64,000 bases of DNA, from the NCBI RefSeq assembly GCF_002863865.1, contig NZ_CP022684.1, forward strand, positions 3,849,990 through 3,913,989, written 5' to 3'. Below are positions 12,727 to 43,683 of this stretch, piece by piece. A program made the position numbers and the translations under genes. Origin of the DNA: Ketobacter alkanivorans. Its GTDB lineage: Bacteria > Pseudomonadota > Gammaproteobacteria > Pseudomonadales > Ketobacteraceae. The notes under the pieces were generated by a model. The model did no database searches. It was not told where the DNA came from and saw only the letters and a list, made by a program, of their open reading frames with translations. Numbering within the stretch: the first letter of the stretch is position 1; each line of letters starts with the position of its first letter.

Positions 12727-14544
12727 TTGAATCAAGCACAGCATCGACTTGCATTGCCGGAAGGCACAGAGCTGCATTGGTATCGTATTCGGGGGGTGCT
12801 GGGGAAGGGTGGGTTTGGGATCACCTACCTGGCGCAGGATACAAATCTGGACCGGCCCGCAGCGATCAAGGAGTTCTTGCCAACGGAATTTGCCACCCGT
12901 GATGCCGACCATTCGGTGCATCCCGATTCAGCGCAGCATGAGGAGTTGTATCGCTGGGGGCTGAACCGGTTTATCGAAGAGGCTCGCCTGCTGTCCCGCT
13001 TTGAACACCCTAACATCGTGCGTGTTCATACGGTATTCGAAGAGAATAACACCGGTTATATGGTGATGGCTTATGAAGAGGGGCGCAGCCTTAAGGCACT
13101 GTTGAATGAGCGCTCGACTTTGGATGAAAGCACATTGCTGGGGTTGCTGTTGCCTGTGCTTGAGGGGTTGGAGCAGGTTCATCAAAAGCAGTTTATCCAT
13201 CGTGATATCAAGCCGGACAATATTTATGTGCGAGACGATGGCTCGCCCGTATTGCTGGATTTCGGTTCTGCCCGACAGTCGGTGCCCGGTGAAAGCCGTA
13301 CGCTGACTACGATGGTGTCCCCGGGGTACGCGCCTTTTGAACAATATCACCCCAAGGGCGAGGATCAGGGCCCTTGGACCGACATCTACAGCCTTGGGGC
13401 AACGCTGTTTAGAGCTATTAGCGGCGTGAACCCGGTGGATGCGGTAACCCGCAGTCATGCTTTGCTGGGAGGCAAACCAGATCCGCTGCCGGTGCTGAGG
13501 CCGGCCGCACACGAGGGATATTCGCCTGCACTACTGGCCGCGGTGAATCACGCATTGTGCTTTCAACCCAATGATCGCCCCCAAACCATTGCCCAGTGGC
13601 GGCAGGAGCTGCACTCAGGGGATGCGACCGTGGTGGTGCCCCGCAGCAACAAGGTGCAAGCAGAGATTACCCCAAGCCCCGGCAGCAATAAAAGGCACCC
13701 GTTACTATGGTTGGGCGCTTTGGCCCTATTAAGCACCGTGCTGCTTGGGTATGGCTGGATGACGCTGAACTCGGTGCCGGTGGTGTCGCATAAGCAACCG
13801 GTTACGGCGGATACCAATGCAATTTCACCCTCGCCATCCCCTGCGCCTAAGGCAGAGTCAACCGAGACAATGTTGGCGCAACATCAAGCAGAGCTGCAGC
13901 AGCGTGAGCAACAAGAAATGGAACGTAAGCGCCAGGAGGAGCAAGAGCGCCAAGCAGAAGCAATACGGATAAAGCAGGAGTTGGCGCGGCAGGAAGAGCA
14001 AGCCAGGGCACGGGCATTGAAGCAGCAGCAAGAAAAACTGCAGCAAGAAAAGCAAAAAGAAATCGAGCGCAGCATTGAAACTTCAGCCGCCGCCATAGCG
14101 CAGCGGCAGGCGCAAAAACAGGATGTGTACCCTTTTGCCGAATGGCCCCAAGCCAAGCCGCTACAGAGTCAGGTGAGCGTGAATGTGGCGGCATCTGATA
14201 AGCGCTGGACCAGTGCCGGGGTGATGGTTGAGCGTGGCAGGCAATATCGTATTGTGGCGAATGGGCAATGGCAGCTGGGCGCGTTATGCAAAGCCACCGA
14301 TGCCACCGGGCAGGGCATGTATACCTTAGCGTGTTGGGATGGTGGCGGCCAGACCGTGGCAGGTTATCCTCACGGAGCACTGATCGCCAAAGTGGGCAAG
14401 AACGCGTTGGCTTTTTATGTGGGGCCGGAGTTTGAGTTTACTGCGCCACTGGATGGCCCGTTGTACTTTATGGTAAACGAGGCTGCACCATTCTTTGGTG
14501 ACAACAGCGGTGCTTTGAGCGTTGTTGTTTCAACAGAGAACTAA
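12727..14544 (+). CDS. Transmembrane Ser/Thr protein kinase with LecA-like C-terminal domain
   Basis: A 605-residue Hanks-type kinase. The catalytic domain (residues 18-295) has a glycine loop GKGGFG, Lys48, HRDIKPDN with Asp160, and DFG with Asp178, so it should be active. A juxtamembrane GDATVVV around Thr301 resembles a phosphorylation/FHA-recognition motif. One membrane span lies at about 324-346, followed by a Gln/Glu-rich coiled coil to about 460. The exported C-terminal 125 residues end with GALIAKVG, then F.APLDGPLYFMVNE and FGDNSGALSVVV, a pattern like the galactose-binding lectin LecA (PA-IL). This suggests a sensor of sugars or wall fragments. The start is TTG with a G-rich site upstream; no better start is in frame. 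Confidence 0.85.
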   Translation: MNQAQHRLALPEGTELHWYRIRGVLGKGGFGITYLAQDTNLDRPAAIKEFLPTEFATRDADHSVHPDSAQHEELYRWGLNRFIEEARLLSRFEHPNIVRVHTVFEENNTGYMVMAYEEGRSLKALLNERSTLDESTLLGLLLPVLEGLEQVHQKQFIHRDIKPDNIYVRDDGSPVLLDFGSARQSVPGESRTLTTMVSPGYAPFEQYHPKGEDQGPWTDIYSLGATLFRAISGVNPVDAVTRSHALLGGKPDPLPVLRPAAHEGYSPALLAAVNHALCFQPNDRPQTIAQWRQELHSGDATVVVPRSNKVQAEITPSPGSNKRHPLLWLGALALLSTVLLGYGWMTLNSVPVVSHKQPVTADTNAISPSPSPAPKAESTETMLAQHQAELQQREQQEMERKRQEEQERQAEAIRIKQELARQEEQARARALKQQQEKLQQEKQKEIERSIETSAAAIAQRQAQKQDVYPFAEWPQAKPLQSQVSVNVAASDKRWTSAGVMVERGRQYRIVANGQWQLGALCKATDATGQGMYTLACWDGGGQTVAGYPHGALIAKVGKNALAFYVGPEFEFTAPLDGPLYFMVNEAAPFFGDNSGALSVVVSTEN

Positions 14545-35230: not shown

Positions 35231-35363
35231 GCATTAGGCCTAATTGCGACTTTTCAAAATCGTTTGACGTCGATCATCGTATTGGCAATCATTGGGCCTA
35301 TCATAGAAGCGCATGACTATTGTGCCTTTGGCCATCCGTACGAGTTCTGACCGAGAGTATTAC

Positions 35364-35642
35364 ATGAGAACCATCCACAAGTTTGAAGTCCCGATTTCCA
35401 AAGAAACCCAGACCATCGATTTGCCTGAAAAGGCCACTATCGTTCACGTGGAATATCTGATGCCCCGGCGCACAATCTATATGTGGGCGGAAGTGCCTGC
35501 TGACATGACTGCACCCAAGTCGCCCCGTCAGTTCCGCGTGTTCCTGACCGGTGACGGTATCCCTAACAATGCCAGCTATCTGGGTTCCACCATTGATCAA
35601 TACCTGCCTGAGGCTTATCACGTCTACGAATTGTTGGCCTGA
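35364..35642 (+). CDS. DUF7352-like small conserved protein
   Basis: A 92-residue cytoplasmic protein, IHKFEVPISKETQTIDLPE at the N-terminus and RQFRVFLTGDGIP in the middle, matching the pattern of the DUF7352 family often seen in phage and bacterial genomes. Function unknown. Start chosen at MRTIHKFE, with GAGAG upstream, because conservation begins there. A strong terminator follows. Confidence 0.7.
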   Translation: MRTIHKFEVPISKETQTIDLPEKATIVHVEYLMPRRTIYMWAEVPADMTAPKSPRQFRVFLTGDGIPNNASYLGSTIDQYLPEAYHVYELLA

Positions 35643-35758: not shown

Positions 35759-37042
35759 ATGAGCCAACCCCAGACACTCGGCAAATACCAAATTCAGGGA
35801 TTGCTTGGCAAAGGTGCGATGGGGGTGGTGTATAAAGGCTTTGACCCGAATATTGCCCGTGCAGTAGCCATTAAGACCATCCACGCCTCGTTGCTGGACA
35901 CCGAGATGGGGCGCGAGTTGCTGGATCGTTTTCGTAATGAGGCCCAGGCGGTAGGGCGTCTCAATCACGCCAACATCGTATCTATTTACGAATTCGACCA
36001 GGATCGCGGCACTCCCTATTTCGTCATGGAGTACGTTGAAGGTCACGATCTGAAAACCCTGATTAAAGAGGGTCGCAAGTACAGCCCATCGGAAACCGTG
36101 CACATCATCAGCGCCATTTTGAGTGCGTTGGATTACACCCATAAACTGGGCATTGTGCATCGGGATATCAAGCCTGCCAACGTGTTCATTACCCACAATG
36201 GTCAGATCAAACTGGCCGACTTTGGTATCGCCAGGGTCGACAATGCCGAACTGACCCAGATGGGCAGCGTGCTGGGAACGCCTTCGTATATGTCGCCGGA
36301 GCAGTGCAAAGGCTTGCCAGTGGATGCCCGCAGTGATCTGTTTTCCACCGGCGTCGTATTGTACGAACTGTTGGTGGGCAGAAAGCCCTTCGCCGGGGAT
36401 AACACCCACGCCATTATGCACAGCGTGTTGTCGGCAGAGCCGGATCGGCCCACTCACAAAGATCAGTCGGTGCCCAAGGCCTTCGATGGGATCATCAAAA
36501 AAGCGCTGGCCAAAGATGTACAGCAGCGCTATCAGACAGCGGCTGCGTTTCGGGATGACTTACAAAAAGCGGTGCAGCCTGCGGCCAGTAAAGGCAGCAA
36601 TAAACTGGTGATTTCTCTGGCTGCCGGGGTGGTGTTGGCTCTGGCGGTTGCCGGTGGCATGTGGTTCAAAACCCAGCGCGACCACAAGATCGTTCAGCCT
36701 GGGGTGGATGTCGTTCAAAGTGGCGTGTTGTCTGCCAAAGAACAGGCCAAGGTCGATCGCCTCATGGCCGTGGCGGAGGCCCATTTCAAAGTGGGGCGGC
36801 TGGTGTCGCCTCAGGGCAGCAATGCGTTTGAGGCCTATCAGCTGGTGTTGCAAGTGGACCCTCAGGACAGTGACGCGTTGGAAGGAATTAACCGGGTTAA
36901 GAACCGGTTCTTCAAACGTGCCCAGTTACTGGCATTGGAGGGGCGGCGTGAAGATGTGCAGAAACATCTTGAGCTGGCAGAGCGGCTGTTCCCCAATGAT
37001 GATCGCATTATGCTGCTGCGCAATCGGGCTAACGAGCAATAA
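35759..37042 (+). CDS. Transmembrane Ser/Thr protein kinase (PpkA/PknB type)
   Basis: A 427-residue Hanks-type kinase. The catalytic domain (8-270) has LGKGAMG, Lys39, HRDIKPAN with Asp136, DFG with Asp154 and GTPSYMSPEQ, so it should be active. One membrane span lies at 282-303. The exported part (325-420) is a helical, TPR-like domain (VGRLVSPQGSNAFEAYQLVL, then NRVKNRFFKRAQLLALEG). The neighbouring opposite-strand membrane protein ends in a domain of the same kind. With the nearby PP2C phosphatase and TagF it forms the kinase of a threonine-phosphorylation pathway; known relatives control type VI secretion, absent here. Confidence 0.9.
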   Translation: MSQPQTLGKYQIQGLLGKGAMGVVYKGFDPNIARAVAIKTIHASLLDTEMGRELLDRFRNEAQAVGRLNHANIVSIYEFDQDRGTPYFVMEYVEGHDLKTLIKEGRKYSPSETVHIISAILSALDYTHKLGIVHRDIKPANVFITHNGQIKLADFGIARVDNAELTQMGSVLGTPSYMSPEQCKGLPVDARSDLFSTGVVLYELLVGRKPFAGDNTHAIMHSVLSAEPDRPTHKDQSVPKAFDGIIKKALAKDVQQRYQTAAAFRDDLQKAVQPAASKGSNKLVISLAAGVVLALAVAGGMWFKTQRDHKIVQPGVDVVQSGVLSAKEQAKVDRLMAVAEAHFKVGRLVSPQGSNAFEAYQLVLQVDPQDSDALEGINRVKNRFFKRAQLLALEGRREDVQKHLELAERLFPNDDRIMLLRNRANEQ

Positions 37043-37077: not shown

Positions 37078-38286
37078 TTAGCGTGAAGCTGGGCTGAGCA
37101 CCTCAAAGGCGGCGTCCAGCAGCAGTTGCGAATCATCCCATTCGGCCCGTCCCTGCGCTTTCTTACTGGCCGCGACGTAGATGTCCTTCAGATACACCCT
37201 CGCTTCCGACAGTTCCGGCTCGAGAGGGTATTCAGCCTGCATAAAACGCAATACTTCATGGGCGTTGCCAGGGTCTTCCAGTGGCAGCAGCAGCCCTTGA
37301 TCGGCTCGTTCTTTTAACAATGTCAGTGCGTCGGCAGCGCTCAGGTCTGCCGTCAGGGGGGAGGGCTGCGATGCGGCTTCCGGCTCGGTAGTGGCAGGCG
37401 CTTGCGGTGCCGGCTCCGCTTCGACGGTCGGCGCGTTGAATTCTGTTTCATTAACGGCGGATTCACTAAACACTGGCTCGGGGTTAGGCGCGGGCTCGGG
37501 GGTTATGGATTGTTGTGTCGGTTCGTTACTGGCGGGGTTGTTGTCTTCTGTGATGACGGTGGCCATCGGGCGTGTGCCCCAGTACCCCAGCACCATGGCC
37601 CCCAGTATCAAGGCGCCTGCCAACCACATCCAGTTGGGCGGGTTGAATGAGCGCGACGGCTTGTGATCCATTCTGTTGGATGCTGTTGAGGGGCGGTGTG
37701 GCGTGGGTTGCTGATCCTGATTGATCGAGGTGACCACCGATGGCATGGTCATGGCACGGACTTCTTCCGCGCTGGTGATCATGGTCGCATCATGCTCCTC
37801 GGCGGCCGCGCTGTCAGACGGATGATCAGCAGGCTCGGCAGAAAATTCGGCAGAATCATCCACAGCGGTTGTGCCTATCAAGGTAGGCACATCGTGCAGG
37901 CGCGCCATGTCGCTGGGTTGGCTACCCAGTGACACTTCGGTGGCGTCATCCTGGTGGGCATGCATGCTGGGGGCCACGATGGTGGCTTCTTCGTCCCCTG
38001 CAACCAGGGTGTCGGCGTCGGGGCTGGTTATGATCGGCTCCACCGGTTGATCGATGCGCGTTTGGTCGTCGTTATCCAAGGTGGCTTCTATCTCTTTTCT
38101 CAGCAGCAGAAATTCGGTGACTGGAATCGGGTGTTCGTATTGTGCCTGATCCAGCCAGCCCATGAAATGGCCACGCCGCATGGGCTCTTTGCCGATGGCG
38201 TCCTCCATAAAACGCCGCAGCTCTTCCCGTTGTTTTTTGCCTTTGCGAAAATCATCAAAGTAAGCGGAAAGAACGCGGCTCGACAT
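37078..38286 (-). CDS. Single-pass membrane protein with a multi-threonine motif array, probable kinase substrate
   Basis: A 402-residue protein of no named family. The cytoplasmic part (1-215) starts with a small helical domain and then carries six or seven acidic-x-Thr-hydrophobic motifs: EATL (Thr69), DQTRI (Thr76), DADTLV (Thr93), EEATIV (Thr102), DDATEV (Thr116), DVPTLI (Thr135) and HDATMI (Thr168). Such motifs are typical bacterial Ser/Thr kinase sites and FHA ligands. A membrane span lies at 219-236, then a Pro/Glu linker, then an exported helical domain (315-398) whose pattern LLLPLEDPGNAHEVLRFMQ parallels the adjacent kinase. It follows the caspase gene by 24 bases. Substrate role is inference. 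Confidence 0.75.
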   Translation of the reverse strand: MSSRVLSAYFDDFRKGKKQREELRRFMEDAIGKEPMRRGHFMGWLDQAQYEHPIPVTEFLLLRKEIEATLDNDDQTRIDQPVEPIITSPDADTLVAGDEEATIVAPSMHAHQDDATEVSLGSQPSDMARLHDVPTLIGTTAVDDSAEFSAEPADHPSDSAAAEEHDATMITSAEEVRAMTMPSVVTSINQDQQPTPHRPSTASNRMDHKPSRSFNPPNWMWLAGALILGAMVLGYWGTRPMATVITEDNNPASNEPTQQSITPEPAPNPEPVFSESAVNETEFNAPTVEAEPAPQAPATTEPEAASQPSPLTADLSAADALTLLKERADQGLLLPLEDPGNAHEVLRFMQAEYPLEPELSEARVYLKDIYVAASKKAQGRAEWDDSQLLLDAAFEVLSPASR

Positions 38287-38310: not shown

Positions 38311-40377
38311 TTAAATGGTGGTGCCAGGATTGAAGAAGAACTCTCCGGCCTCGTGGCCTGCATAGCGGGCCGGTGCGTATTCGGGAACCTGTTGTACGTT
38401 CAGACTACGCGCTTTGCTCTTTACCTTGCTCAGTACTTCGCGGTAAATCGAGTGGCCTTCTATGATGCCGTTGCTGCTGTTCAAAGTTTCCAAGAACGCG
38501 CGGGAGAACACCGAGTGTCCGTCACCGCCGCCATCCAGCACCGGGGCAACACCACCGGAGGTCAGAACGGTGCGCGCGCGGGCCTGAGACATGGCCATTA
38601 TCCATTCTTTCTGCAGCTCTTCGGGCATGGATTCATCCACGCGGGGCATGGCCGCTACGGACAGGGTGCCCGCATAGCAGGAATCAGCCACTACCATCAC
38701 GTGTTTGGCTTTTAGTGTGTTGAGGATGTCTGATATGGCGCTGTTGGAAATCCAATTACGCGGATTGCCTTGTTCGGCATCCACTGGCAGCCAGAAGCCC
38801 TTTTCGGTTTTGTTGTCTATTTCACCGTGGCCTGCGTAATAGATCAGCAGGTTATCCTGATCGGTCAGGGTTTCTCGCAGTTCGTTCAGCGCCGCGAGGA
38901 TCTCATAACGGGTGGCGTTTTTCAGTATGGTGGTTTTAAACCCGAATTTAGATTCCAGTAATTGTGCGGTTTCGGTGGCATCGTTAACGGCCGTTTTCAG
39001 TGCAGGATACTCGCGATATTCGTTGTTACCGATTACCAGGGCATGGTAGTTGCCCAGGTTGATGCCAGACTTGACCGCCAGGCCTTTCTGTTCGGTAGGC
39101 TGCGCTGCGGCGGCCACGGTTGAGGTTTGATCCGGTACAAGGCTGAAGTTAAAGGAAACCTTGTTGCCCTGATCGTCGATGGCCTCCATTTTCACGGTTT
39201 TGCGGCTGCCGTCGATGGGAACGTTCACCCAGAACAGGTTGTATTCATCAACCGTCTGCTCTTTGCCGTTGACCACAAAGCTCTTCAAGCCGCGGGGTGC
39301 CTTGATTTTGCCAACGATTTCTTTTTCTGTCAGGTTGGATTTCACGGGGATAGTGGGCAGCCCGCGCATCAGGGTCATGGGGGGGTCAATGATTTCGATA
39401 ACCGGCATGCTGTCTGCGCTGGCGATCAGCGTTTCAGATTCCAGCAGGCTGGTGTTGGTGGACGCCATTTGATTGCTGATTTGCTGCAGTTGCTGGCTGG
39501 CATCGGCCAGCTGCTTCTGCTGGGTGCTGACTTCAAGTTGGGCTGATTGCAGCTCTGAGCGCAGTTGCTTGATCAGCTCCTGGCTCTGTTGATGAATATC
39601 CTTGGACTCTTGGGCGAACAACGCCAGCTCGGCGGATTTCTGGGTTTGTTCGGCGGCAGCCAATGCTTGTTTGCGCTGGGCCAGTTCTGATTGCACGTTA
39701 GCCAGTTGGCCTTCGGCAGCGGCTAACTGCTGGCTCTTGTAAGCGACTTCATCTTTCAGGCGGGTCAGCTCCTTCTGGTCGACAGCGCGAACTTCCACGG
39801 TAGAGGAGTAGAGCAGGTCGTCGCTTTCCAGACCGGCGGCACTGCGGTACAGGTTCAGCGCCATGGCCTTATCCTGGGCCACTCCCAGGCCTTTTTCATA
39901 CAGGTTGCCGAGGTTGATCTGGGCACGGGAAAAGTTCTGCTTGGCGGCTTTTTCGTACCAGATCGAGGCCGCCTGATAATCAGGTTTCAGGCCCAGGCCC
40001 TTTTCATAAATCTCACCTACGTAGGTCTGGGCTTCAGCATCGCCGGACTGCGCCACAGGCAGCCAGATCTTCAGCGCAGTGGCGTAGTCGGCCCGGTCAA
40101 ACGCAACGTACTCGCCGCCGCGTATCTCACAATCGCTGGCGGTGGTTTTGACGGGGCGGCGAGCGGTTAAGAATGTGGTCTGGGTGCCCAGCCTTTTGAC
40201 CTGGCCTGGCAGCAGACAATCGATGATCATGAGGTCATCAGCGTTTTTGGCTTCGCTGGCGGCGGCAGACGCGCCGGGCTGGGTCGCAGGTGCCGATGCA
40301 CAGGCACTGAGAATGACGCTAAGAAAGCCGATGCAGAAACCGGTTCCGGTTACCTGAAAACGTTTGGGAGCACGCAT
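38311..40377 (-). CDS. Caspase-like (peptidase C14) lipoprotein with Sel1 repeats and coiled coil
   Basis: A 688-residue predicted lipoprotein: lipobox LSAC with Cys26, Ala next, so outer-membrane sorting is likely. Domains in order are two Sel1/TPR-like repeats (96-178), a long Gln/Ala-rich coiled coil (200-310), a beta-sandwich region (325-415), and a caspase/metacaspase domain (435-680). The catalytic dyad is intact: His517 in YYAGHGE and Cys567 in ADSCYAG. It would cut proteins in the envelope after a signal; substrates are unknown. It lies in a three-gene run after a lipoprotein hydrolase and before the threonine-array protein. Confidence 0.9.
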   Translation of the reverse strand: MRAPKRFQVTGTGFCIGFLSVILSACASAPATQPGASAAASEAKNADDLMIIDCLLPGQVKRLGTQTTFLTARRPVKTTASDCEIRGGEYVAFDRADYATALKIWLPVAQSGDAEAQTYVGEIYEKGLGLKPDYQAASIWYEKAAKQNFSRAQINLGNLYEKGLGVAQDKAMALNLYRSAAGLESDDLLYSSTVEVRAVDQKELTRLKDEVAYKSQQLAAAEGQLANVQSELAQRKQALAAAEQTQKSAELALFAQESKDIHQQSQELIKQLRSELQSAQLEVSTQQKQLADASQQLQQISNQMASTNTSLLESETLIASADSMPVIEIIDPPMTLMRGLPTIPVKSNLTEKEIVGKIKAPRGLKSFVVNGKEQTVDEYNLFWVNVPIDGSRKTVKMEAIDDQGNKVSFNFSLVPDQTSTVAAAAQPTEQKGLAVKSGINLGNYHALVIGNNEYREYPALKTAVNDATETAQLLESKFGFKTTILKNATRYEILAALNELRETLTDQDNLLIYYAGHGEIDNKTEKGFWLPVDAEQGNPRNWISNSAISDILNTLKAKHVMVVADSCYAGTLSVAAMPRVDESMPEELQKEWIMAMSQARARTVLTSGGVAPVLDGGGDGHSVFSRAFLETLNSSNGIIEGHSIYREVLSKVKSKARSLNVQQVPEYAPARYAGHEAGEFFFNPGTTI

Positions 40378-40432: not shown

Positions 40433-41305
40433 CTACCTCGTTACTTTGTCACACATACTATCAATAGTTGTATCTAGATTGATCAGCGTCCACCAGAAGG
40501 GCCAGCCTGATCGATGATCGGCCCGCTCGATGGACAGATAGCGGGCGTTGGGCTGAGCCTGGCTGAATGCCTCGATCCAGCGCGGCAGAATCTCCTTATC
40601 CAGAGCGCCCGCCATGTGGGCTTGCTGGATGCATTCCGGCAGTGGAGGCTGGGTTGCAGGGTCCAGCGACAGGCTGAGGGGGCTGTAGCCGTGGTGCTGA
40701 ACCCACTCTGCCACCTGCAGGTTGCCCGCCAGGGTCACCACGCCGGTAACATTGGGCAGCCTGGGGGCCAGTAATACCGCCAGGGTACCGCCGCCGCTGT
40801 GCCCAATCAAGGTGATGGGGTTATTGCCGGGAAGGCTGCGTTGCAGCGCGCTTGCCATGCTGGCCACGGTTGCTTCGCTGTAGCGGGCCAGAGTCCAGCT
40901 CACCGGGCTGCAGGCCGGATCTTGCGTATGATAGTAGCAGGGTCGCCCCAGATAGAGTGCAGGCGATGTATCCTTGCTCATCATCTCTAACAACATGGGG
41001 GTGCGGGGTGTAGGGTCCAGGCTGGGGCGGCCTCGGGCATCCACCGCGCGGCCGTCTCCCTCGATGTACACGTGCCAGTGCAGAGGCCTCGGTTGAGGGG
41101 CGTTGGCCTGCTGCGCTGCTGGGTTCATCAGAATTCGGTGACGGAAAGTGACCCCATCCTGCACCTCGTTGCTGAATTGCTGATGGTCGATAATGTGCTG
41201 GTAGGAGCTGCACGCCGTGAGCAGCCCCAAGCCGAGGATGGCCACGATCATCAGCATGGACTGTGCTGTCTTGATCACTTTATCTGCATTCTTTGTTACA
41301 GCCAT
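40433..41305 (-). CDS. Alpha/beta-hydrolase lipoprotein
   Basis: A 290-residue predicted lipoprotein; the lipobox LLTAC puts the lipidated Cys at about residue 32, followed by Ser, consistent with the outer membrane. The nucleophile elbow is IGHSGGG near residue 167; strand order WHVYIEGDG near 78 and ADHRSGWPFWW near the end supply the oxyanion and catalytic His regions. Probably an esterase or lipase; substrate unknown. First gene of the leftward run with the caspase, 55 bases apart, and divergent from tagF. Confidence 0.8.
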   Translation of the reverse strand: MAVTKNADKVIKTAQSMLMIVAILGLGLLTACSSYQHIIDHQQFSNEVQDGVTFRHRILMNPAAQQANAPQPRPLHWHVYIEGDGRAVDARGRPSLDPTPRTPMLLEMMSKDTSPALYLGRPCYYHTQDPACSPVSWTLARYSEATVASMASALQRSLPGNNPITLIGHSGGGTLAVLLAPRLPNVTGVVTLAGNLQVAEWVQHHGYSPLSLSLDPATQPPLPECIQQAHMAGALDKEILPRWIEAFSQAQPNARYLSIERADHRSGWPFWWTLINLDTTIDSMCDKVTR

Positions 41306-41365: not shown

Positions 41366-42139
41366 ATGAGTGACGGGAATTCAGCGGGCTTGCACGGCAA
41401 GTTGCCACAACAGGCGGATTTTATCAGCCGCACATTGCCAATGGCGTTCACCAGCGGCTGGGATGACTGGATGCAGCGCAGCCTGCTGGCCTCTCAGGAG
41501 ATTCTCGGCAATCAATGGCTTGAGATCTATCTTACTAGCCCCGTTTGGCGGTTTGTGCTCAGTGCCGGGGTGTTTGATCAGCAGGCATGGGCTGGCGTGA
41601 TGGTGCCCAGTGTGGATAAAGTAGGGCGTTATTATCCACTGCTGCTGGCGCAACCGTTGGCAGCCGATGCCTTGCCCACGGCGCCACTGATTACGTCGGC
41701 GGATTGGTTTATGGCGCTGGAGGAGCTGGCGGTTCGCACCTTGCAGGATAATCTGCCGGTGAGTGAGCTGGAACATCAGCTGGGCCTGATACCAGCACTG
41801 CAAAGTGAGCACCGGGTCAGTCAGGGCAAGTGGGAAGTGGGCCGCCCTCTTGCCCTGTTCCAGCAACAGGATCTGAACCCTCTGCATACCTACCCCCATC
41901 TGCTGCACGAACTGCTGCGCCAGCGGTTTCCTGCTTACAGTCTGTGGAGCAGCGCCGGATCTGAGCGTGTTGCCCCCGCCCATCTCATCAGTGGTTATCT
42001 ACCGTCTCCACAATGCTACACTTCATTATTAGCAGGGGACTGGGCACAACAGGGGTGGAATACCCCGCTGGATGTGATCACACCATTGGCCTTTTGCAGC
42101 AACAACTGTAACAATACACACGACATTCAGAACGAGTAA
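41366..42139 (+). CDS. tagF: TagF-family protein (type VI secretion post-translational regulator)
   Basis: A 257-residue cytoplasmic protein. The N-terminal GLHGKLPQQADFISRTLP and WDDWMQRSLLASQEILG, then SPVWRFVLSAGVFDQQAWAG, are diagnostic of TagF/DUF2094. In Pseudomonas, TagF blocks type VI secretion until the kinase PpkA and phosphatase PppA act. It is followed by a PP2C phosphatase after eight bases, the order found in type VI clusters, but no tss/tag structural genes occur in this window. Confidence 0.88.
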   Translation: MSDGNSAGLHGKLPQQADFISRTLPMAFTSGWDDWMQRSLLASQEILGNQWLEIYLTSPVWRFVLSAGVFDQQAWAGVMVPSVDKVGRYYPLLLAQPLAADALPTAPLITSADWFMALEELAVRTLQDNLPVSELEHQLGLIPALQSEHRVSQGKWEVGRPLALFQQQDLNPLHTYPHLLHELLRQRFPAYSLWSSAGSERVAPAHLISGYLPSPQCYTSLLAGDWAQQGWNTPLDVITPLAFCSNNCNNTHDIQNE

Positions 42140-42147
42140 GAAACTGC

Positions 42148-42870
42148 ATGGTGCAGACCCATTGGCTTAGCAGCGCGGCAACTCATTGTGGCGCAGTTCG
42201 AAACATGAATGAGGATGCCTTCCTCAACCGCAACAACGATGGTTTGTGGGTAGTCGCAGACGGAATGGGCGGACACGAAGCCGGTGAGGTAGCCAGTCAG
42301 ATGATTACGGCTTCCATCGGGCGGGTGGACGTGGCTCAGCCGCTTTCGGAGGTGGTGGATGCCATTGAAGATACGCTGCTGGAAGTGCATCACAAAATCC
42401 GTACTTACTCCCGTACCCACTGTGAAGGCCGCACCATGGGCAGCACGGTGGTGTCATTTTTTATGCGCGAGTCTGTAGGCGTTTGCCTGTGGGCTGGCGA
42501 TTCCCGCCTTTATCGTTATCGTGATCAAGCCCTGCAGCAGGTGTCCGATGATCACAGTCAGGTCAACGAAATGTTGGCCCGAGGCATGATTACCCCGCAG
42601 GAAGCGATCAATCATCCGGCCTCCAACGTCATCACGCGTGCAGTAGGTGCCAGTGAAACGCTTTATATCGACGTGACCCTGGTAGAACTGAAACCCAATG
42701 ATGTGTATCTGCTGTGCAGCGATGGCCTTTACGGCGCGCTCGAAGAGGCAGAGATCGCCAGTCTGTTGGCCAGCGGTGATGTAGAAGCCGCCACCCAGGC
42801 GTTGATAGAGCGTTCGTTGCAAGCCGGGGCCCGGGACAACGTCACGGTCATAGCGGTGAAAGTGCAATGA
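42148..42870 (+). CDS. pppA: PP2C-family Ser/Thr phosphatase (PppA/Stp1 type)
   Basis: A 240-residue cytoplasmic metal-dependent phosphatase. All PP2C motifs are present: VRNMNEDAF (motif 1, metal Asp), VADGMGGHEAGEVAS (motif 2), GSTVV, WAGDSRLYRYRD, LCSDGLYGAL and ARDNVTVIAV. It should reverse phosphorylation by the kinase at 35.8 kb. Its stop overlaps the next small gene (ATGA), so translation is coupled. Confidence 0.93.
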   Translation: MVQTHWLSSAATHCGAVRNMNEDAFLNRNNDGLWVVADGMGGHEAGEVASQMITASIGRVDVAQPLSEVVDAIEDTLLEVHHKIRTYSRTHCEGRTMGSTVVSFFMRESVGVCLWAGDSRLYRYRDQALQQVSDDHSQVNEMLARGMITPQEAINHPASNVITRAVGASETLYIDVTLVELKPNDVYLLCSDGLYGALEEAEIASLLASGDVEAATQALIERSLQAGARDNVTVIAVKVQ

Positions 42871-43163
42871 TGACGCCAGAAAAAGAACAACGGCTGGCCG
42901 CCGAGATGCGTCTGATTGCCCGCCAGTATTGTGACGGGGCTTTCAACAAAATCGAATACCGTCGCCGCAGGCAGGACATTCTGCTGCAATGCGTGGATCA
43001 GGATCTTAGCGCCATCCCGGATGAACCGGTCGAGCTGTTGGACAAGGCCCCGGTGGCAAACAAGGCTCCGCCCACGGCGGTGAACTGGTTGCCATATATG
43101 ATGGTGGGGGTAACGGTGGTAGTGTTGGGAGTGATGGGTTTTTTACTGACTTCAATGATGTGA
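42867..43163 (+). CDS. Small single-pass membrane protein in the tagF-pppA operon
   Basis: A 98-residue protein: a charged N-terminal region ([20 protein letters not shown], then [11 protein letters not shown]) followed by one C-terminal membrane span ([21 protein letters not shown]). It overlaps the phosphatase gene by four bases. No family recognised; a membrane anchor or target of the phosphatase is possible. Confidence 0.72.
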
Positions 43164-43173
43164 GCCTGGTGTC

Positions 43174-43683
43174 ATGGATGACCGAATGCAAGTGTGGGTG
43201 GGCGATATAACCACCCTGAAAGTCGATGCCATCGTCAATGCGGCCAATAGCCAGTTGGCCGGTGGCGGCGGGGTAGATGGAGCAATTCATCGAGCCGCCG
43301 GAGCCGAGCAGTTGCAGGCTGCCTGTCGCATGATCGGGGGGTGTGCAACCGGTCAGGCGGTGATTACCCCCGGCTTTGACTTACCCGCTAAAGCCATCAT
43401 TCATACCGTTGGCCCTGTTTGGTCCGGTGGTCAGAATAACGAAGCTACTTTATTGCGTTCCTGTTACAGCGAGAGCATGACCATGGCCGTACGGGAGGGC
43501 TTTCGTTGCATTGCATTCCCAGCGATAAGTTGTGGTGTGTATGGTTATCCTAAAGAGCAGGCGGTGGCCATTGCAGTGGATGAAGTAGAGCGGTGCCTGG
43601 AAACTTACCTCATGTTCAAACGAGTCATTTTTGCCTGTTTCGATCAGTCTATGGCGGATCTCTATAACCGCTTGCTGGCGTAA
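43174..43683 (+). CDS. Macrodomain protein, O-acetyl-ADP-ribose deacetylase type
   Basis: A 169-residue single macrodomain. Visible signatures are [31 protein letters not shown] (ADP-ribose site and catalytic Asn/Asp), HTVGPVW and [13 protein letters not shown]. YmdB-type enzymes remove acetyl or ADP-ribose groups. It is the fourth gene in the tagF-pppA operon, which adds ADP-ribose signalling to a phospho-signalling group. An alternative start four codons in is possible. Confidence 0.92.

Follow-up and report, generated by a model that had tools for sequence, protein, structure and literature searches.

We have analyzed a window of 64,000 nucleotides of Ketobacter alkanivorans (contig NZ_CP022684.1, positions 3,849,990 to 3,913,989; coordinates below are those of this window unless another locus is named). 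The subject is a gene at 37078..38286 on the minus strand, the product of which carries a repeated threonine motif and appears to act in the threonine phosphorylation pathway of a type VI secretion system (T6SS). It codes for a single-pass inner-membrane protein of 402 amino acids, presumably with the N-terminus in the cytoplasm, that we will call the array protein. All its parts are given here on the minus strand. A four-helix domain is predicted at the N-terminus (residues 1–73, 38068..38286), with a predicted local distance difference test (pLDDT) score of ~60 over a shallow alignment, and is kept in all the homologues. Then comes a cytoplasmic linker that, according to the structure model and the motif scan, is disordered and holds the motifs (residues 72–172, 37771..38073), the pLDDT being below 50 over residues 74–125 and 127–213. 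Sequence and model agree on a transmembrane (TM) helix at about residues 218–237 (37576..37635), and a periplasmic C-terminal TPR-like helical domain is predicted with a pLDDT of ~90 at about residues 315–400 (37087..37344). The Pfam search of the array protein gave no match above the cut-off, hence neither a DotU nor a kinase domain, and the fold search with its model gave no significant match in the PDB, the best being BamD/TPR-like. The models of this protein and of the neighbouring kinase were each built from three sequences. Homology of the N-terminal domain to the N-terminus of PpkA was rejected on comparison, and class-wide matches to the same domain were weak (best E 3.6e-4) and judged unconvincing.

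The motif was scored as an Asp or Glu at -3 to -1, the Thr, one of V, I, L, M, R or E at +1 and one of V, I, L or M at +2. The initial annotation had counted six to seven such sites in the cytoplasmic half of the protein. Six of them fit the motif and lie in the disordered linker, all on the minus strand: T76 (DDQTRI, 38059..38061), T93 (DADTLV, 38008..38010), T102 (EEATIV, 37981..37983), T116 (DDATEV, 37939..37941), T135 (HDVPTLIG, 37882..37884) and T168 (HDATMI, 37783..37785). The seventh, T69 (EATLD), was dropped, since the residue at +2 is an Asp, the site is part of the N-terminal domain's last helix, and most homologues have Ser, Arg or Ala there. The motif that the same annotation had placed at T301 of the other kinase of the window (GDATVV; 12727-14544) is present. 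Six sites in the linker (residues 74–217) compare with a mean of 0.33 in shuffled sequences (P ~1e-5). The background, measured over 380 open reading frames taken from the window and a further 400 kb of the genome, was 1.7 sites per 1000 amino acids, and the array protein was the only one of the 380 with more than three sites within 110 residues, the runner-up having three.

Since the motif was derived from the array protein itself, its homologues provide a fairer test. Besides the same genus, they represent three further genera of the family and a second family, and two of them belong to Ketobacter-type metagenome genomes. The three aligned homologues from one of the other genera (g2) show 22–24% identity overall and have five to six sites each. 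Among nine aligned homologues the only invariant columns of the linker, the alignment of which is approximate, were T93, L94, T102, T116 and A167; the rest was mostly unalignable and varied in length. The expectation that the motifs would be kept while the linker drifts was thus borne out. When each linker was shuffled, 64 sites centred on Thr were counted in 14 homologues against 4.3 expected, and a single one centred on Ser where 3.1 were expected; with Val, Ala, Gln, Asn, Gly or Pro as the centre the counts were at chance level or near it. The consensus is approximately D-[DE]-[DE]-[AE]-T-L-[VI]-[ASG]-P. This retention of Thr with exclusion of Ser fits selection by an FHA reader that accepts only phosphothreonine (pThr), while a kinase alone need not select in this way. 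In the homologue of one genome (G011, L048:9610-10842) the first site is lost and there is a short tandem repeat, PGDSTPGDST.

Just downstream of the array gene, on the plus strand, is found a Hanks-type Ser/Thr kinase (35759..37042), identified by its Pkinase domain, with a TM helix and a periplasmic helical tail, for which we propose a PpkA-like role. It has no N-terminal extension, its juxtamembrane segment is short and free of motifs, and its structure model is poor (mean pLDDT 49). A periplasmic domain shared by kinase and array protein is not claimed, the initial match having come from a piece of the array gene itself on a different contig. Domain search and synteny identify a small DUF7352 protein (35313..35642, plus strand) as conserved upstream of the kinase. 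On the other side, the array gene is adjoined by a caspase-fold (Peptidase_C14) lipoprotein with Sel1 repeats (38311..40377, minus strand), whose His/Cys dyad is apparently intact (YYAGHG, ADSCYAG), and beyond it the same kinds of evidence indicate an alpha/beta-hydrolase-like lipoprotein (40433..41305, minus strand). Three genes on the plus strand come next: the T6SS regulator TagF (41366..42139; PF09867, TIGR03373), a PP2C phosphatase of the PppA type (42148..42870) and a 98-residue protein with a single TM helix (42867..43163). In the g1 (the window's own genus) and g3 loci read, a macro-domain-like protein (43174-43683 in the window) comes after these last two.

This arrangement is characteristic of the family. 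In every homologous family locus read, some of them cut by contig ends, the array gene and the gene of the same kinase converge tail to tail, and the array gene directly follows the caspase-fold lipoprotein with Sel1 repeats. In genus g1, TagF (in most), the PP2C phosphatase and the 98-residue TM protein come next. The module has an FHA gene of the TagH type beside it in genus g2, genome G008 and another family (f22). The g2 genome G002 has the contiguous order TM protein-PppA-TagF-TssM-TssL-TssK-TssJ-Fha-hydrolase-caspase-array-kinase, in which the FHA protein has the T6SS FHA C-terminal domain and the TM protein follows pppA as it does in the window. The proteins of this operon are the closest to those of the window, at 66% identity for PppA, 56% for the kinase, 48% for TagF and 40% for the TM protein. 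By its gene neighbourhood, the array gene belongs to the T6SS threonine phosphorylation module of the family, made up of kinase, array protein, caspase-like lipoprotein, TagF and PP2C phosphatase. The pathway, overlooked in the initial annotation, is that of type VI secretion, and the T6SS protein Fha/TagH is the likely reader.

In the genome of the window the module is unlinked from the core tss genes. The T6SS-1 cluster of this genome (~2.83 Mb) contains TagF and TagH, the latter (G000:C1 ~2.829 Mb) scoring above the TIGR03354 cut-off, and no T6SS-type kinase/PP2C pair was seen in the cluster as read; T6SS-2 (~4.38 Mb) has its own PppA and PpkA. These gene contents are most simply read as those of a T6SS-1 whose regulatory half has become detached and is located in the window. 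One congener (G013) has neither array nor caspase gene and only a TssL of the T6SS-2 type, and another genome (G009) has neither the module nor a close TssL. Beside T6SS-1 we have seen contractile injection or phage-tail-like genes, sheath- and baseplate-like by eye (L168:946-14016, G000:C1 ~2.813-2.826 Mb). The genome has ~11 FHA domains and more than 10 Hanks kinase domains, several with single motif-like sites, so the sites of the array protein might be docking, autoregulatory or FHA-reader sites of a Hanks kinase network unrelated to T6SS, the linkage to T6SS genes in relatives being incidental. We consider this quite improbable, given a module contiguous with the tss operon in g2 and adjacent to a TagH-type gene in f22, TagF and PppA sequences close to their counterparts in the T6SS operon of g2, and a T6SS-1 without a kinase of its own in the cluster read.

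FHA proteins of the window's genome (L021/L027, L020/L025, L023, L024) have motif-like sites beside the FHA domain (DADATVF, DEDSTRLL, DDDEATVF, DADRTEVY), with DIDETVI at a C-terminus, a situation that recalls the self-binding of OdhI/GarA. In two proteins of this genome (L037, L042) a PP2C-like domain at the N-terminus is fused to a kinase domain, with a TM helix at the C-terminus. A linker of a ChpA-like chemotaxis kinase (L057) contains the motifs DTLV and DPTLV.

The same motif is found in a core T6SS component. In Agrobacterium tumefaciens, PpkA phosphorylates Thr14 of TssL within DLPTVVEI, and Fha binds this sequence only if it is phosphorylated (DLPpTVVEI), with a dissociation constant (Kd) of 1.58 mM for an 8-mer and 0.54 mM for a 20-mer (PMC3953482). 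T135 is the nearest of the six sites of the array protein to this DLPpTVV. The TssL N-termini of the family of Ketobacter have one or two copies of the motif (MSSDDDKTVFTPG...MDSTVFIP, MSTEDKTLVQ, MSDDDRTLIQ), with DDKTVF, EDKTLV or DDRTLI as cores; the TssL genes of the genome itself are at L169:1042-1938 and L171:12088-13056. Similar N-terminal tails, [DE]-x-T-[VIL]-[VIMF], are found in TssL of many gammaproteobacterial families (L202-L230, L231-L270). Outside the family, we surveyed 40 TssL loci of the same order, counting kinases and PP2C phosphatases within ~10 kb. A Hanks kinase or PP2C phosphatase was present in 24/25 motif-positive loci and in 1/15 motif-negative ones (Fisher P = 9e-9), and collapsing the survey by family gave 11/0 vs. 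1/6 (P = 4e-4); the sequences being related, these P values are indicative. The motif-positive exception (G035) has kinase and PP2C in an array module elsewhere in the genome, and the motif-negative one has GNRTVIIP, a near-motif without the acid. The association with FHA alone was weaker (P = 0.0013). Several FHA-bearing T6SS loci lack both kinase and motif, indicating that the TssL motif follows phosphorylation and not the presence of FHA alone. We found no published description of this as a general rule.

Arrays are also found in the kinases themselves. Many T6SS PpkA proteins have three to five copies of the motif in a disordered-looking N-terminal extension and others have none. In nine chosen extensions there were 31 Thr sites against 2.2 expected, and one Ser site against 1.9. 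Array-bearing kinases were seen at L231, L233, L234, L238, L240, L243 and L255, and the genome's own PpkA (L171:17362-19851) is another. At L099 (family f14), where we saw no separate gene for an array, a related kinase located beside the same caspase-like gene has four to five motifs between the kinase domain and the TM helix. Given that the array may be carried by the kinase or by a partner, its function seems tied to the kinase. The hydrophobic residues at +1 and +2 are conserved equally with the Thr context, as they would be in a linear motif that works without phosphorylation, the repeats being structural or adaptor-binding sites. We regard such a role as very improbable, since Ser, Val or Ala takes the place of Thr no more often than expected by chance, the motif tracks the presence of kinase or phosphatase in the TssL loci, and the sites match a proven phosphosite.

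Taken together, the requirement for Thr with exclusion of Ser, the adjacent kinase, the linked FHA gene and the match to a published phosphopeptide bound by Fha give indirect support to the idea of the initial annotation, a multisite phosphorylation scaffold read by FHA proteins. We favor, with somewhat better than even confidence, that the array protein acts in trans as a multisite pThr platform of the T6SS threonine phosphorylation pathway, recruiting Fha/TagH by avidity. The neighbouring membrane kinase would phosphorylate up to six Thr of the linker and the PP2C phosphatase at 42148 would strip the phosphates. Each pThr site would mimic the N-terminal site of TssL and be bound by the FHA domain of Fha/TagH. 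As the affinity of a single site is millimolar, several sites grouped on one membrane-anchored chain would raise the local amount of Fha at the inner membrane, close to the kinase and to TssL with its like site. The Fha gathered in this way would promote T6SS assembly, the least certain step of the scheme. For the periplasmic TPR-like domain we propose tethering or sensing, perhaps by way of the caspase-like lipoprotein; this domain and the two lipoproteins, caspase-like and hydrolase-like, may together form the sensing side.

The opposite effect has to be considered as well. With several copies of the TssL motif, the array could be a phosphorylation-dependent sink that competes with TssL for Fha, setting a threshold or keeping T6SS-1 off; the array gene is near tagF, and TagF represses by binding Fha (PMC5995506). 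This appears unlikely, if clearly worth keeping in mind, as the array relies on a kinase of the type that switches T6SS on in the known systems, and arrays in cis on PpkA itself fit recruitment better than sequestration. Promotion is preferred over holding Fha back on account of these array-bearing activating kinases, but either sign is compatible with the sequence data.

Several observations weigh against the platform interpretation. The motif definition was drawn up after the array protein had been seen, a circumstance from which the tests in the homologues, PpkA and TssL are largely independent. Some homologues are poor in sites under the strict motif, with two in L009 and one in L103. No FHA reader is encoded in the window, nor beside the array gene in genus g1, and one genome (G007, a draft) has the module, yet only a TssL of the T6SS-2 type was found in it. 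The co-occurrence counts of TssL are only partly independent phylogenetically. Finally, the periplasmic tails of array protein and kinase, both helical in the models (that of the kinase being poor), gave no significant profile-profile match (hhalign E 0.059, probability 0.9%).

A broader proposal, to which we would give slightly less than an even chance, is that TssL N-termini, PpkA N-terminal extensions and a dedicated array protein all carry one shared pThr code (acidic-x-T-hydrophobic-hydrophobic), with Fha as its reader. The array protein would be a multivalent platform of a kind not described before, which brings Fha together, possibly in condensates, and so places and triggers T6SS assembly. 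We found no T6SS array protein of this type described in the open-access literature. If the proposal is true, a dedicated multisite platform would explain how millimolar contacts between pThr and FHA become effective, and a signal at the membrane could set the sites of T6SS firing through it. The motif is searchable in other genomes and could lead to unknown T6SS regulators.

The phosphorylation targets of T6SS are known singly and depend on the species, Fha in Pseudomonas and Serratia and TssL in Agrobacterium. TssL is also a target in Vibrio alginolyticus (PMC10482370). A common motif predicting both PpkA action and Fha binding would, if real, unify these targets. A close likeness is that of the pThr14-Fha pair of A. 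tumefaciens TssL, with the same local motif (DLPpTVV) in the N-terminal cytoplasmic segment of an inner-membrane protein, PpkA-dependent phosphorylation and a T6SS FHA reader, the last two being proposed likewise for the array protein. However, in Agrobacterium there is one site on a core T6SS component, while the array protein has about six, is dedicated and is not a core component. Its N-terminal domain is also a different one, its periplasmic tail is TPR-like, and it lacks the DotU domain of the TssL/DotU family. The PpkA kinases with arrays carry them in cis, on the same chain as the kinase domain, whereas the array of the window is in trans, on a separate protein without a kinase domain beside the kinase.

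Outside T6SS, the linker of mycobacterial Rv1747 is multisite. This FHA-ABC transporter, which clusters by phase separation and is listed among the proteins that undergo liquid-liquid phase separation (PMC12607579), is likewise a membrane protein with links to clustering and to signalling by FHA and pThr, but it has FHA domains and transporter on one protein and is unrelated to the array protein in sequence and pathway. The module as a whole resembles the PpkA/PppA/Fha/TagF pathway of P. aeruginosa and S. marcescens (PMC10482370) in its kinase, PP2C phosphatase, TagF and TagH, contiguous with tss genes in relatives. It differs in the addition of the array protein and the caspase-like lipoprotein, and the upstream TagQRST or RtkS of that pathway were not identified for the module of the window. 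The TssW-PpkA-Fha axis of Acidovorax citrulli also places an accessory envelope protein with PpkA and Fha, although TssW is not described as a pThr platform (PMC12607579). In that species Fha and PpkA form condensates (PMC12607579), to which T6SS parts are recruited and which offer a plausible physical parallel to the platform proposed here.
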